DNA from: a virus
Length of the DNA stretch: 64,000 bases
Virus record (IMG/VR): IMGVR_UViG_3300021959_000031
Span: 1 to 64,000 of that record
Strand: one strand, 5' to 3'
Position 1 is the stretch's first letter; every line of letters starts with the position of its first letter. Shown in pieces: positions 38,922 through 56,875 of this stretch. A model generated the notes under the pieces. It did not search any database. It worked only from the letters and a program-made list of their open reading frames with translations, and was not told the DNA's origin. The position numbers and the translations under genes are program-made.

Positions 38922-39146
38922 ATGACAAGAGTAGCAGAGAAAGTTGCCAAACTTACAACAAGGATCACAGAAGAAGATGTTCTGTCACTTTACGAATCGA
39001 GAGACTCATTAGATAACTCAGAATATGTTTTCGATGGTTTGGATTTGATAGAAGAGTTGGAAGCTGACGAACTTGAAGATTTATTACATCACACAGAAAG
39101 ATTGATATTTTCGTTGACTAATCACACTTTTCGTGATAAAGTGTAA
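38922..39146 (+). CDS. Small acidic early protein
   Basis: A 74-residue acidic, helical protein (LDLIEELEADELEDLLHHTE) behind a cassette-type early promoter. Its last 30 nt contain the -35 and -10 boxes of the next cassette promoter, so coding and promoter DNA overlap. Not recognised. Confidence 0.6.
   Translation: MTRVAEKVAKLTTRITEEDVLSLYESRDSLDNSEYVFDGLDLIEELEADELEDLLHHTERLIFSLTNHTFRDKV
39114..39142 (+). promoter_or_regulatory. Repeat-cassette promoter copy 2
   Basis: TTGACT (39114-39119), 17 bp, TAAAGT (39137-39142), then GTAACCACAATCGAGAGAG and ATTATATTATG. It is placed inside the end of the upstream gene. The leader is the same as in the copies near 53 kb. Confidence 0.68.
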
Positions 39147-39394: not shown

Positions 39395-39892
39395 ATGGAA
39401 GATGAAGCTTTAAAATTTGCGACTATGGCGCATGGTGATCAGAAGAGAAAATATACTGACGAACCATATATTATCCACCCTATCGCTGTGGCTGAAATTG
39501 TGAAGTCTGTAGAACACACGGACGAAATGATTGCCGCGGCATTGCTTCATGATGTTGTAGAAGACACTCCATTTACTATCGATGATATTTTCGATAGGTT
39601 TGGTGATAATGTCGGCGAACTTGTAAGTTGGTTAACTGACGTTAGTAGACCTGAGGATGGTAATAGAAAAATAAGAAAGCGTATAGATAGAGAGCATATT
39701 GCAGAAGCACCCGCAGACGCGCAAACTATCAAAATAGCTGACTTGATACATAACACGGGAAGTATAGAAAGATACGATCCAAGTTTCTGGAAAGTATACA
39801 AGCAAGAAAAAATTGATTTACTTGGTGTTCTAACTAAAGGTGATGCAACCTTACGTAAGATTGCTTATGAATTAACAGGAACACTAATATAA
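39395..39892 (+). CDS. HD-domain (p)ppGpp-hydrolase-like protein (MESH1/SAH type)
   Basis: A 165-residue single HD domain that matches small alarmone hydrolases (SpoT hydrolase domain, MESH1). H13 stands in [19 protein letters not shown]52-D53 in [13 protein letters not shown] (with E56-D57), and the distal Asp in [10 protein letters not shown]. No synthetase, TGS or ACT domain is attached. It would be expected to cleave (p)ppGpp and so relieve the host stringent response. Other HD phosphohydrolases cannot be excluded. Its 3' end (GGAACACTAATATAATAAAA) is the same junction sequence found between all genes of the repeat array that follows. Confidence 0.8.
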
Positions 39893-39899
39893 TAAAATT

Positions 39900-40214
39900 A
39901 TGCAAGAATACACAGTAAAAGTAAAGGCTAATGGCAACAAGCGTTGGTATCAGAATGATATGTTTCATCGGTTAGATGGGCCTGCTATTGAATGGGCTGA
40001 TGGAAGTAAGTTTTGGTTTCAAAATGGCAATCTTCATCGCGAAGATGGGCCTGCAGTTGAATGTGTTAATGGCTATAAGGCTTGGTATATTGGCGGTGAA
40101 CAACTTACCGAAGATGAGTTTAACAATAGAACTAGCAATGTAGAGGTAACTCTTGAGGACATTGCTAAAGCTATGAATATAGACGTTGACAAGCTTCGCA
40201 TTAAGGAACATTGA
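39900..40214 (+). CDS. WYQN-HRLDGPA repeat protein, array copy 1
   Basis: A 104-residue protein with two full W-x-Q-N ... HRLDGPA / HREDGPA units, then a WYIGGEQLTEDEFNNR linker and the array's common C-terminal domain EVTLEDIAKAMNIDVDKLRI. The unit resembles MORN-like repeats (W/Y, N-G, D-G-P-A spaced about 23 residues), similar to repeat proteins in giant viruses. The C-terminal domain looks like a small helical bundle. No catalytic motif is visible and its function is unknown; binding or decoy roles are guesses. Confidence 0.75.
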   Translation: MQEYTVKVKANGNKRWYQNDMFHRLDGPAIEWADGSKFWFQNGNLHREDGPAVECVNGYKAWYIGGEQLTEDEFNNRTSNVEVTLEDIAKAMNIDVDKLRIKEH

Positions 40215-40226
40215 TATAATAAGATT

Positions 40227-40538
40227 ATGGAAGAATACACAGTACAAGTATATGCTAAGGGTAATAGGTCTTGGTATCAAGATGGTAAGTTTCACCGTCT
40301 AGATGGTCCTGCTATTGAACAGACTAATGGAAGTAAATTTTGGTATCAAAATGACAAGCGTCATAGGTTAGATGGGCCTGCTGTTGAAGATGCTAATGGC
40401 TATAAGGCTTGGTTTATTGACGGTAAAGAGCTTACTGAAGAAGAGTTTAACAATCGTGACAAAGTAGAAGTAACTCTAGAGGATATCGCCGAAGCTATGA
40501 ACATCGATGTTGACAAGCTTCGCATTAAGGAACACTAA
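40227..40538 (+). CDS. WYQN-HRLDGPA repeat protein, array copy 2
   Basis: A 103-residue protein with the same plan as copy 1: MEEYTVQVYAKGNRSWYQ start, two repeat units (WYQDGKFHRLDGPA and WYQNDKRHRLDGPA), the AWFIDGKELTEEEFNNR linker and the DIAEAMNIDVDKLRIKEH tail. It lacks the TSN insertion before the tail. It starts 12 nt after copy 1, and a TATAAT sequence lies 6 nt before its ATG. Confidence 0.75.
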   Translation: MEEYTVQVYAKGNRSWYQDGKFHRLDGPAIEQTNGSKFWYQNDKRHRLDGPAVEDANGYKAWFIDGKELTEEEFNNRDKVEVTLEDIAEAMNIDVDKLRIKEH

Positions 40539-40550
40539 TATAATAAAATT

Positions 40551-41081
40551 ATGGAAGAGTACAAAGTAAAGGTATATGCTAATGGTAATAGGGATTGGTA
40601 TCAGAATGGCAAGCGTCATAGGTTAGATGGGCCTGCTTCTGAATATGCTAATGGAACAAAGTATTGGTATCAGAATGGCAAGCGTCATAGGTTAGATGGG
40701 CCTGCTTCTGAATATGCTAATGGAACAAAGTATTGGTATCAAAATGACAAGCGTCATCGTCTAGACGGGCCTGCAATTGAATCGTCTGATGGTAGTAAGG
40801 ATTGGTATCAGAATGACAAGCGTCATAGGTTGGACGGCCCTGCAATTGAAGAAGCTAATGGTTATAAGTCTTGGTGGCAAAATGGTATGCGCCATCGTCT
40901 AGACGGTCCTGCTTGTGAATATGCTGATGGTTATAAGGAATGGTATATTGACGGTGAACAACTTACCGAAGAGGAGTTTAACAATAGAACTAGCAATGTA
41001 GAAGTAAATGAAGTAACTCTCGAAGATATCGCAAAAGCTATGAATATAGACGTTGATAAATTACTCATTAAGGAACACTAA
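40551..41081 (+). CDS. WYQN-HRLDGPA repeat protein, array copy 3 (long)
   Basis: A 176-residue protein with five repeat units, two of which are an exact 69-nt tandem duplication (40595-40732). Units alternate WYQNGKRHRLDGPASEYANG with WYQNDKRHRLDGPA and WWQNGMRHRLDGPA. Length differs from copies 1 and 2 only by unit number, and the tail DIAKAMNIDVDKLLIKEH is conserved. The exact duplication shows that the unit number changes rapidly. Confidence 0.75.
   Translation: MEEYKVKVYANGNRDWYQNGKRHRLDGPASEYANGTKYWYQNGKRHRLDGPASEYANGTKYWYQNDKRHRLDGPAIESSDGSKDWYQNDKRHRLDGPAIEEANGYKSWWQNGMRHRLDGPACEYADGYKEWYIDGEQLTEEEFNNRTSNVEVNEVTLEDIAKAMNIDVDKLLIKEH
40595..40732 (+). repeat. Exact 69-bp tandem duplication
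   Basis: Two identical 69-bp units, 40595-40663 and 40664-40732, begin TTGGTATCAGAATGG. A third, diverged unit follows. The unit is 23 codons, so the reading frame is kept. Zero differences mean a very recent duplication. Confidence 0.93.
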
Positions 41082-41093
41082 TATAATAAAATT

Positions 41094-41474
41094 ATGGAAG
41101 AATACACAGTAAAGGTAAATGATAGTGGAGCAAAGTTTTGGTATCAAAATGATAAACTACATCGGTTAGATGGACCTGCTTCTGAATATGCTAGTGGTAG
41201 TAAGGCTTGGTATCAAAATGGTAAGCTTCATCGGTTAGATGGACCTGCAATTGAATGGTCTGATGGTAGTAAGGTTTGGTATCAGAACAATAAGCGTCAT
41301 CGCGAAGATGGACCTGCAATTGATGATGCTGATGGTTATAAGGAATGGTATATCGAAGGTAAACGGCTTACCGAAGAGAAGTTTAACAATCGTAATAAAG
41401 TCGAAGTAACTCTAGAGGATATCGCCGAAGCTATGAATATAGACGTTGATAAGCTCCGCATTAAGGAACACTGA
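41094..41474 (+). CDS. WYQN-HRLDGPA repeat protein, array copy 4
   Basis: A 126-residue protein with three units (WYQNDKLHRLDGPA, WYQNGKLHRLDGPA, WYQNNKRHREDGPA), a WYIEGKRLTEEKFNNR linker and the common C-terminal domain. Alternating HRLD/HRED forms of the unit show mosaic exchange with copies 1, 5 and 6. Confidence 0.75.
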   Translation: MEEYTVKVNDSGAKFWYQNDKLHRLDGPASEYASGSKAWYQNGKLHRLDGPAIEWSDGSKVWYQNNKRHREDGPAIDDADGYKEWYIEGKRLTEEKFNNRNKVEVTLEDIAEAMNIDVDKLRIKEH

Positions 41475-41486
41475 TATAATAAAATT

Positions 41487-41807
41487 ATGCAAGAATACAC
41501 AGTAAAGGTAAATCAATATGGCAACAAGTATTGGTATCAAAATGGTAAACTTCATAGGTTAGATGGACCTGCTTGTGAATTTGCTAATGGTAACAAGTAT
41601 TGGTGGAAAAACAATAAGCGTCATCGCGAAGATGGGCCTGCTGTTGAAGATGCTAATGGCTATAAGGCTTGGTTTATTGACGGTAAAGAGCTTAGTGAAG
41701 AAGAGTTTAATGATAGAACTAGCAATGTAGAAGTAACTCTAGAGGATATTGCTAAAGCCATGAACATCGACGTTGATAAGCTAAGGGTTAAAGGAACACT
41801 AATATAA
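41487..41807 (+). CDS. WYQN-HRLDGPA repeat protein, array copy 5, altered C-terminus
   Basis: A 106-residue protein with two units and the common tail. A one-base insertion near the end (GTTAAAGGAACAC instead of ATTAAGGAACAC) shifts the frame, so the protein ends KLRVKGTLI rather than KLRIKEH and reads through the usual stop. The same shifted reading GTLI ends the HD hydrolase gene at 39892. Confidence 0.73.
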   Translation: MQEYTVKVNQYGNKYWYQNGKLHRLDGPACEFANGNKYWWKNNKRHREDGPAVEDANGYKAWFIDGKELSEEEFNDRTSNVEVTLEDIAKAMNIDVDKLRVKGTLI

Positions 41808-41814
41808 TTAGATC

Positions 41815-41910
41815 ATGGAGACAGTAATTGAAGAAGTTTTAGGATTCGTAATGGGGATAGTATTAATGGTTGGTATTATCTTTGTTATTGTCGAACTAAT
41901 ATGTGATTGA
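41815..41910 (+). CDS. 31-residue single-span membrane peptide within the array
   Basis: A tiny frame METVIEEVLGFVMGIVLMVG, then IIFVIVELICD: an acidic N-terminus, then about 20 hydrophobic residues. It interrupts the array between copies 5 and 6. It starts with ATG, is preceded by the junction-like sequence CTAATATAATTAGATC, and is too short for a 60-residue cut-off. Whether it is expressed cannot be told from sequence. Confidence 0.45.
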   Translation: METVIEEVLGFVMGIVLMVGIIFVIVELICD

Positions 41911-41945
41911 TGGACAGGAAGTAGTAACACTAATATAATAATAGT

Positions 41946-42326
41946 ATGCAAGAATACACAGTAAAAGTATATCCTAATGGCGACAAGTATTGGTATCAGA
42001 ATGACAAGCGTCATCGCGAAGATGGGCCTGCTATTGAATGGGCTAGTGGCTGTAAGGAATGGTATCAGAATGACAAGCGTCATCGCGAAGATGGGCCTGC
42101 TATTGAATTTGCTAATGGCAACAAGCTTTGGTATCAAAATGGTAAACTACATCGCGAAGATGGGCCTGCGATTGAATATGCTAATGGCTATAAGGCTTGG
42201 TATATCGAAGGTAAAGAGCTTACCGAAGAAGAGTTCAATGCTCGCAATAAAGTCGAAGTAACTCTTGAGGATATCGCCGAAGCTATGAACATTGATGTAA
42301 AGAAACTACGCATTAAGGAAAACTAA
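41946..42326 (+). CDS. WYQN-HREDGPA repeat protein, array copy 6
   Basis: A 126-residue protein with three units, all of the HREDGPA form (WYQNDKRHREDGPA twice, WYQNGKLHREDGPA once), a WYIEGKELTEEEFNAR linker and the tail DIAEAMNIDVKKLRIKEN. The homogenised HRED units suggest within-gene amplification distinct from copies 3 and 7. Confidence 0.75.
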   Translation: MQEYTVKVYPNGDKYWYQNDKRHREDGPAIEWASGCKEWYQNDKRHREDGPAIEFANGNKLWYQNGKLHREDGPAIEYANGYKAWYIEGKELTEEEFNARNKVEVTLEDIAEAMNIDVKKLRIKEN

Positions 42327-42338
42327 CATAATAAAATT

Positions 42339-42869
42339 ATGGAAGAATATAAAGTAAGAGTATATGATAATGGTAATAAGCTTTGGTATCAGAATGGCAA
42401 GCGTCATAGGTTAGATGGGCCTGCAATTGATTGGGCTAATGACAATAAGTCTTGGTGGCAAAATGGTAAGTGCCATCGGTTAGATGGTCCTGCCATTGAA
42501 CGGGCTAATGGAGATAAGCTTTGGTATCAGAATGACAAGCGCCATCGGCTAGACGGGCCTGCTATTGAACGGGCTGATGGATATAAGGCTTGGCTTCAAA
42601 ATGACGAGTTTCATCGACTAGATGGGCCTGCTATGGAATATGCTAATGGAACTAAGTATTGGTATCAAAATGGTAAGTGTCATCGCGAAGACGGGCCTGC
42701 AATTGAATGGTCTGATGGTGATAAGCATTGGTTTATCGAAGGTGAAAAACTTACTGAAGAAGAGTTTAACAATAGAACTAGCAATGTAGAAGTAAATGAA
42801 GTAACTCTGGAAGATATTGCAGAAGCAATGAACATTGATGTTGATAAGCTCCGCATTAAGGAACACTAA
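42339..42869 (+). CDS. WYQN-HRLDGPA repeat protein, array copy 7 (long)
   Basis: A 176-residue protein with five units: WYQNGKRHRLDGPA, WWQNGKCHRLDGPA, WYQNDKRHRLDGPA, WLQNDEFHRLDGPA and WYQNGKCHREDGPA. The linker HWFIEGEKLTEEEFNNR, the TSNVEVNEVTLED insertion and the common tail follow. It shares the VNEVTLED insertion only with copy 3, the other five-unit copy, which suggests that one derives from the other. Confidence 0.75.
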   Translation: MEEYKVRVYDNGNKLWYQNGKRHRLDGPAIDWANDNKSWWQNGKCHRLDGPAIERANGDKLWYQNDKRHRLDGPAIERADGYKAWLQNDEFHRLDGPAMEYANGTKYWYQNGKCHREDGPAIEWSDGDKHWFIEGEKLTEEEFNNRTSNVEVNEVTLEDIAEAMNIDVDKLRIKEH

Positions 42870-42881
42870 TATAGTAAGATT

Positions 42882-43223
42882 ATGAAAAAAAGCACAGAAG
42901 TGAAGATGGTGAAATGCCTTTCTCAAGATAACCTAAAATCTTACCTTTTCGGAAAAGCCCGCGAATTTGCCAGCGAGTCTTACGAAAATGTTGATTGGGA
43001 CAAAACAGAGCATGGTAATTTTGGTAAGTATTATTTTGAGGAGTTCTTAGAGTACATCGAAGATGATAGACCAGAACAAATAAACTTGCTGATAGAAAAA
43101 GAGCTAGAATGTGAAATGTCACTATCAGAATGTGAAGATTTGGATGCATATGTAGATTCGATCATAACTCAAGACGAATACCACATCAATAACATTGTTA
43201 TTTTTAGAGATTTAATTTTTTAA
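42882..43223 (+). CDS. Hypothetical acidic protein after the array
   Basis: A 113-residue protein, acidic and helical, with a KYYFEEFLEYIEDDRPEQIN segment and two Cys (ECEMSLSECEDLD). It is unrelated to the repeat family, but its upstream DNA is the array junction (GGAACACTAATATAGTAAGA). It is followed 4 nt later by a 48-residue gene. Not recognised. Confidence 0.6.
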   Translation: MKKSTEVKMVKCLSQDNLKSYLFGKAREFASESYENVDWDKTEHGNFGKYYFEEFLEYIEDDRPEQINLLIEKELECEMSLSECEDLDAYVDSIITQDEYHINNIVIFRDLIF

Positions 43224-56719: not shown

Positions 56720-56875
56720 ATGGTAACTAAAATTACAATTGAAGCAAGTGACACTAAAGACCTCATTAAACGTCTTGACCAAATTAAAGATGCTATAGAA
56801 TCTAATAGTATTGAAGACTATGCGTTAATGGATGGTTCTTTTCAAATAGGATCTTCAAATTTACAAGTGGATTAA
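56720..56875 (+). CDS. 51-residue early protein, source of the thyX-flanking repeat
   Basis: A short frame MVTKITIEASDTKDLIKRLD, then QIKDAIESNSIEDYALMDGS and FQIGSSNLQVD. A cassette promoter supports the start. Its last third, together with the start of the next gene, is repeated in degraded form after thyX (58041-58127). Its stop overlaps the next ATG by one base. Not recognised. Confidence 0.58.
   Translation: MVTKITIEASDTKDLIKRLDQIKDAIESNSIEDYALMDGSFQIGSSNLQVD

Follow-up and report, generated by a model that had tools for sequence, protein, structure and literature searches.

A tandem array of seven paralogous repeat genes lies in a 64,000-nt stretch of virus DNA, positions 1 to 64,000 of IMG/VR record IMGVR_UViG_3300021959_000031, referred to below as the window. 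The core of the record is T4-like, with a gp43-type polymerase sharing 44 to 47% identity with marine T4-like phages and a gp23-type capsid protein sharing 53 to 57% identity with Pelagibacter, Methylophilales, and Stenotrophomonas phages. The full virus record of 65,564 bases has no completeness estimate and may be a fragment, so the compact phage genome assumed in a preliminary description of this DNA was not established.

The repeat open reading frames (ORFs) A1 to A7, all intact, occupy positions 39900 to 42869 between a primase-like gene (37290) and a UvsX-like gene (43423). Their HRxDGPA motif counts are listed in Table 1, and each of the seven proteins ends in VTLEDIAxAMNIDV(D/K)KLxxK or a close variant. 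Tandem Repeats Finder independently recovered the 69-bp unit together with gene periods of about 324 and 393 bp. The preliminary description had reported seven paralogues with a common C-terminal tail, two to five units per gene, and one shared junction that recurs where the HD gene ends and ahead of the gene at 42882; all of this was found. Its inventory of the array, right in the seven genes, overlooked a 31-amino-acid (aa) mini-ORF with a probable membrane helix inside the array. The mini-ORF, flanked by a junction on either side, is a second cassette type unrelated to the repeat genes and is present in two copies in the relative L009 (L-numbers are labels of relative loci; some of the 94 viral entries share contigs). 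The HD_4 hydrolase upstream of the array possibly acts on (p)ppGpp.

Table 1. Positions in the window of the array genes, the junctions, and the upstream neighbor (aa, amino acids)
Feature	Position	Strand	Description
HD hydrolase	39395..39892	+	RelA/SpoT HD type (HD_4), upstream neighbor; stop codon within junction 1
Junction 1	39878..39899	+	HD gene end / A1 leader; promoter-like TATAAT 6 nt before ATG
A1	39900..40214	+	MORN-type repeat gene, 104 aa, 2 HRxDGPA motifs, tail VTLEDIAKAMNIDVDKLRIKEH
Junction 2	40205..40226	+	A1/A2, GGAACATTGATATAATAAGATT
A2	40227..40538	+	Repeat gene, 103 aa, 2 motifs
Junction 3	40529..40550	+	A2/A3; left edge of 150-nt block identical in L009
A3	40551..41081	+	Repeat gene, 176 aa, 5 motifs; junction and 5' part equal to L009 gene B3 over 150 nt
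Junction 4	41072..41093	+	A3/A4
A4	41094..41474	+	Repeat gene, 126 aa, 3 motifs
Junction 5	41465..41486	+	A4/A5
A5	41487..41807	+	Repeat gene, 106 aa, 2 motifs; C terminus VKGTLI-stop (junction in other frame)
Junction 6	41793..41814	+	A5/mini-ORF; left edge of 96-nt block identical in L009
Mini-ORF	41815..41910	+	31 aa, METVIEEVLGFVMGIVLMVGIIFVIVELICD, one hydrophobic helix; between A5 and A6
Junction 7	41924..41945	+	Mini-ORF/A6; sole junction with a good -35 (TGGACA-17-TATAAT, 11/12)
A6	41946..42326	+	Repeat gene, 126 aa, 3 motifs; predicted structure pLDDT 91.1
Junction 8	42317..42338	+	A6/A7
A7	42339..42869	+	Repeat gene, 176 aa, 5 motifs; predicted structure pLDDT 92.1
Junction 9	42860..42881	+	A7/next gene

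The array contains nine junctions with the form GGAACACTAATATAATAAAATT-ATG, lying between its parts and at both ends. The junction GGAACACTAATATAATAAAA was present in eight copies with at most two mismatches, all within the array, compared to none for the reversed control; the ninth copy, at 40205-40224 between A1 and A2, has three mismatches. The last residues of the preceding gene are encoded by the junction in two different frames, as KEH-stop in most array genes and as GTLI-stop in A5 and the HD gene; the conservation of the junction is therefore at the DNA and not the protein level.

The AlphaFold models obtained for A6 and A7 have high confidence overall and show a run of beta-hairpins that leads into two or three short, less confidently modeled helices. 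In Foldseek searches against solved structures, MORN-repeat proteins led for both models, with the best E values of 1.3e-3 for A6 and 9.6e-7 for A7, the latter to Trypanosoma brucei MORN1. No match to the Pfam MORN profile (PF02493) was obtained at E <= 1 among the seven array proteins. By their modeled structure the array proteins are MORN-type in fold and not members of PF02493, and the system that the preliminary description could not name is thus nameable at the fold level. The 23-residue unit and the beta-hairpin chain are shared with MORN-repeat proteins (PF02493; MORN1 of T. brucei, Toxoplasma, and Plasmodium, junctophilin, MORN4, and SET7/9), whereas the array motif WYQNGKxHRxDGPAxE departs from the MORN consensus, and here the genes lie in tandem in a phage and encode a repeat whose one face is variable.

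Among viral models, Foldseek matched proteins of Atu_ph07, P12053L, and uncultured phages, and giant-virus MORN proteins. The cultured phages Atu_ph07, an Agrobacterium phage with five places matching the repeat, and Celeribacter phage P12053L carry members; they and the giant-virus MORN-like proteins (Mimivirus R871 and Harvfovirus) have the same repeat by structure, the phages also by sequence. These proteins differ in being annotated as hypothetical or "MORN repeat," and the Atu_ph07 paper is silent on repeats and paralogues. The DUF6745 (PF20530) cut-off of 27 bits was exceeded by A6 alone (28.1 bits, profile positions 63-117 only), the other six proteins being below it or unmatched, and the gathering score was also passed by several bacterial relatives; the matches span about 20 to 55 of 206 positions, essentially one repeat unit. 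MORN_2 (PF07661), the family to which YwqK belongs, had no profile match in the window proteins and reached at best 24.2 bits in relatives, against a cut-off of 29.6. The unit reads similarly to that of MORN_2 or YwqK-type antitoxins, but the array has no recognized toxin partner. PHROGs and NCBIfam assigned no function, the PHROG matches being weak and of unknown function, a PDB sequence search with the repeat proteins returned chance matches only, and megablast of the array region against isolate phages gave no match.

Relatives were collected by an alignment search of IMG/VR, with the best 80 of at least 308 confirmed candidate stretches retained, and the same type of search in bacterial and archaeal assemblies gave 74 loci. 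Two or more tandem genes were present in 55 of the 94 viral entries examined, with the largest run of 16 in L186. The rapid turnover at two scales claimed in the preliminary description, which had also proposed comparing copy and unit numbers among related phages, was confirmed, as both numbers vary between close relatives. L009 and L010 were joined via a 2,708-nt identical overlap into a 12.5-kb composite, which matches L011 in the flanks at 96.1% over 4,862 nt and 95.6% over 4,495 nt and carries six repeat genes compared to two in L011; the repeat genes themselves are only about 73 to 79% alike despite flanks of about 96%. L158 matches L160 at 99.95% over 8,210 nt and at 98.4% over a following 4,114 nt, with one more repeat gene in L160 (2 versus 3). 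At the scale of units, L169 and L189, about 94 to 98% identical, have 3 versus 6 units in the same gene. Single-gene loci were stable, with unit number unchanged in L016-L018 and in L198/L201. Neighboring units resembled each other no more than did units from different genes (similarity 0.775 versus 0.761), which limits recent in-gene duplication to the identical A3 pair. Beside the L011 array, at L011:5134-5319, lies a homologue of window ORF 55448, which in the window is about 13 kb from the array, and small genes near the array thus also appear to be shuffled.

Between the window and L009, gp43 shares 59% aa identity with saturated dS, and the core genes are about 60% identical. When the 64-kb window was compared with the L009/L010 composite, the longest exact matches, of 150, 105, 96, and 80 nt, were all in the array, and no exact match of 24 nt or longer was found outside it. 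The 150-, 96-, and 80-nt matches start 1, 2, and 5 nt before a junction, and to the left of the junction at the 150- and 96-nt blocks the identity drops to about 25%. The dS between A3 and its L009 counterpart B3 is 0.24, compared to the saturated value for gp43, and identity along this pair alternates between about 100% and about 80%. The pattern is one of cassette exchange in which one breakpoint lies at the junction, accompanied by patchy conversion between units.

The junction was also traced outside the array. A scan of viral contigs with GGAACACTRATATAATAA returned 41 stretches, compared to 14 for the reversed pattern. After merging, 19 of 26 contexts had an ATG 5 to 6 nt after TATAAT, before many different genes; one of the 19 falls within coding sequence as a coincidence, and 18 of 26 remain. 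A tRNA-like gene with acceptor and T-arm sequence and a long insert, for which ARAGORN makes no call, is located directly behind the element at L054:225, L056:8868, L063:7973, and L065:149 (minus strand), a placement that favors a promoter over a translation signal. Across these contexts the junction is best described as a widespread promoter-like element that is not specific to the array; its treatment as a system of the array's own did not hold, since it is widespread before unrelated genes and the tRNA-like gene. The TATAAT-ATG spacing would put the transcription start at the ATG, and promoter activity is suggested rather than established because just one junction has a good -35 hexamer. 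A promoter-like element before genes of many unrelated marine phages is a candidate gene-shuffling route that is easily testable.

The GGAACACTRATATAATAA element was seen before many unrelated small genes in other phage contigs (L037, L038, L028, L059, L067, and others), with a single stretch of a 105-kb contig holding as many as five copies when the 16-base core is counted. Two other identities of the junction were rejected. As a ribosome-binding site it was dismissed because Shine-Dalgarno cores in the record do not exceed background (5 of 85 genes against 7.4%) and because of its position before the tRNA-like gene. The 85 plus-strand ORFs of the window show T4-type late promoters TATAAATA and TATAAT boxes 5 to 9 nt before many ATGs, which fits leaderless mRNAs. 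The second candidate was PeSL, a mobile regulatory cassette of T4-type phages in which an early promoter is coupled to a terminator stem-loop in an intergenic sequence whose repetition permits module shuffling, according to Arbiol 2010 and Comeau 2014 as cited in PMC4503421. The window junction resembles PeSL cassettes in recurring at the borders of genes and in being followed by unrelated genes (18 of 26 distinct contexts), and differs in having no stem-loop or terminator; PeSL identity was rejected because no stable hairpin (fold z-score -0.03) and no terminator were found at the junctions.

Selection was analyzed along the 23-aa unit by a crude counting method for dN/dS in which recombination was ignored. 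In the alignment of 51 units, W1, H8, R9, D11, P13, and A14 were invariant, and positions 17, 21, and 23 were the most variable (2.5 to 3.1 bits). E16 and K22 are complementary and flank the ANG turn; should they form a pair across the hairpin, residues 15, 17, 21, and 23 would share the opposite face. In the window group, the face (positions 2, 15, 17, 21, and 23), chosen on the A-D arrays for its variability, had a dN/dS of 2.24 (bootstrap 1.67 to 3.06), compared to 0.06 for the remaining scaffold. With these positions then fixed for 23 other arrays, the face exceeded the rest in 23 of 23 and was at least 0.95 in 15 of 23. Neutral simulation with AT-rich codons gave means of 0.49 to 0.58 and a maximum of 1.35 in 240 runs, so the estimator is conservative. 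The diversifying selection postulated in the preliminary description is therefore retained for one unit face, which lies above the neutral simulation, and not for the whole genes, which are under purifying selection with dN/dS of 0.13 to 0.32.

Taken as sequence analysis, the array, its predicted fold, the turnover at two scales, the exchange starting at junctions, and the site-specific variability are well supported. They are read here as a set of adaptor proteins, each with a variable face and a constant tail, whose genes are exchanged as cassettes, and we assign this reading a probability of about 50%. The proteins are predicted to be solenoids built from 23-residue beta-hairpin units and to end in a short helical tail that does not vary within the array, and each repeat gene, as well as the unrelated 31-aa mini-ORF, stands behind the same short promoter-like element. 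The breadth of tandem arrays among viral loci and the modularity seen in fusions of the repeats to MazG and DUF3310 domains also speak for this reading. Element and repeats would supply homologous sites to the phage recombination machinery, by which whole genes, gene parts, and single 69-nt units could be duplicated, lost, or swapped between phages. With a scaffold of W1, H8, R9, D11, P13, A14, E16, and K22 that is kept fixed and a face at 2, 15, 17, 21, and 23 that changes fast, binding is the most likely function. Each copy would act as an adaptor, with the variable face recognizing a protein of the host or of a competitor and the constant tail joining the adaptor to a common partner, and a binding role of this kind would account jointly for the array, fold, turnover, and exchange.

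The target is probably a host factor of defense or metabolism, and an anti-host role of the array is plausible while falling somewhat short of probable. From the same data we infer that binding to a host defense, a receptor, or a toxin, the roles named in the preliminary description, may be involved. A broader proposal is tentative and on balance unlikely to apply in full: that phages hold shared recombining repertoires of variable-face binders, each a hypervariable MORN solenoid with a constant tail, traded between distant phages as promoter-gene cassettes, and that this amounts to an antibody-like or LRR-like diversification without reverse transcriptase, directed at proteins of the host or of competitors. 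Should the variable face bind proteins of hosts or rivals, the arrays would be a natural binder library and a readable record of phage-host conflict.

Several results weigh against the adaptor reading. Whole array genes are under purifying selection, the face was below 0.95 in 8 of 23 arrays, bacterial ones included, and the window-group value of 2.24 is partly circular, which leaves the test on 23 arrays as the only independent one. Many arrays outside the window group have no promoter-like junction, with other leaders or abutting genes instead, and the element is thus not needed for expansion generally. No defense or counter-defense family was matched by PADLOC (run on A3 and A6) or PHROG.

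A selfish or neutral expansion, in which repeats with a promoter-like leader duplicate by recombination with little function and the scaffold is kept for harmless folding, is unlikely. It draws on junctions and repeats that are ready recombination substrates and on gene numbers that differ between near-identical contigs, and the face is perhaps just unconstrained in many arrays; the face is nevertheless above the neutral simulation in over half of the arrays, and the seven intact ORFs with their low whole-gene dN/dS, together with a tail retained in all window copies and in distant arrays, are at odds with little function.

Less likely still is a polyimmunity-like locus of antitoxins or immunity proteins, like MORN_2/YwqK, that neutralize toxins of the host or of competitors. 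Homogeneous polyimmunity loci, tandem paralogues of one immunity family whose number varies between strains (PMC3482391), are the nearest organizational parallel to the array, and in Bacillus subtilis YwqK is paired with the LXG toxin YwqJ (PMC8321402). Those loci differ in consisting of bacterial immunity genes with other folds and a link to toxins. Weak MORN_2 matches in relatives favor the polyimmunity reading but are under the cut-off and confined to other members of the family, and no toxin gene was recognized next to the bacterial relatives examined.

We regard as very unlikely that the repeats form a targeting module of nucleotide metabolism, tethering small enzymes or regulators (MazG, DUF3310, and tails) to a compartment or to each other. 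An HD_4 hydrolase does precede the window array, and MORN-type repeats are fused N-terminally to DUF3310 or MazG at L163:5364-5957, L163:6631-7191, L165:4354-5010, and L171:2946-3689, with differing unit numbers; most array members, however, carry only a tail of about 22 residues and no enzyme, and a variable face would be superfluous in a fixed tether. Separately, at L013:2394-3050 a repeat gene is fused to the N-terminal ~67 residues of a homologue of window ORF 49993, which looks like a ribonucleotide reductase small subunit.

Stacking or shuffling of repeated genes by the metagenome assembler, suggested by arrays that reach a contig end (24 of 94) and by a reported 37-fold excess of MORN repeats in long reads over assemblies of marine viruses (PMC9238414), is extremely unlikely, as L009 and L010 from separate metagenome records agree at 100% over the 2,708 nt of array, L152/L153 and L149/L155 agree likewise, and the cultured phages Atu_ph07 and P12053L carry members.

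Contig edges that cut these 24 arrays agree with the long-read enrichment. MORN-type repeats are frequent in the DNA of phages and bacteria but carry hypothetical annotations and disrupt assemblies, which leaves their biology largely unseen. Such phage arrays were not found described in the literature searched, and descriptions elsewhere are possible. The tails are similar within an array and different between arrays (LTLDEIAxKFGVxVSKLKIKK, ELTVAEIEKLLGYKVKIVK, CNGKEVVIDGITYxL, and others); the tail of the window genes is also kept in distant arrays, and a related tail occurs on a few non-repeat proteins. For the idea that the tail is a widespread phage module, short-tail queries against isolate phages gave no usable signal.

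The Burkholderiales relatives (L073, L075, L080, L086, L087, L091, L098, and L131) share a conserved block of small genes with an N6/N4 DNA methylase and an XRE-type regulator, and NikA/MobC-type mobilization genes stand beside the repeats in L073 and L080. A contig labeled Lokiarchaeota (L069-L071, JABXKB010000001.1) has many repeat genes and looks viral or misbinned. In the window, a second repeated leader, GTAAMCACAATCGAGAGRGATTATATTATG, precedes small accessory genes at 39143, 52997, 53505, and 53885, four copies where none is expected in shuffles, and related leaders occur near 56720 and 63137.

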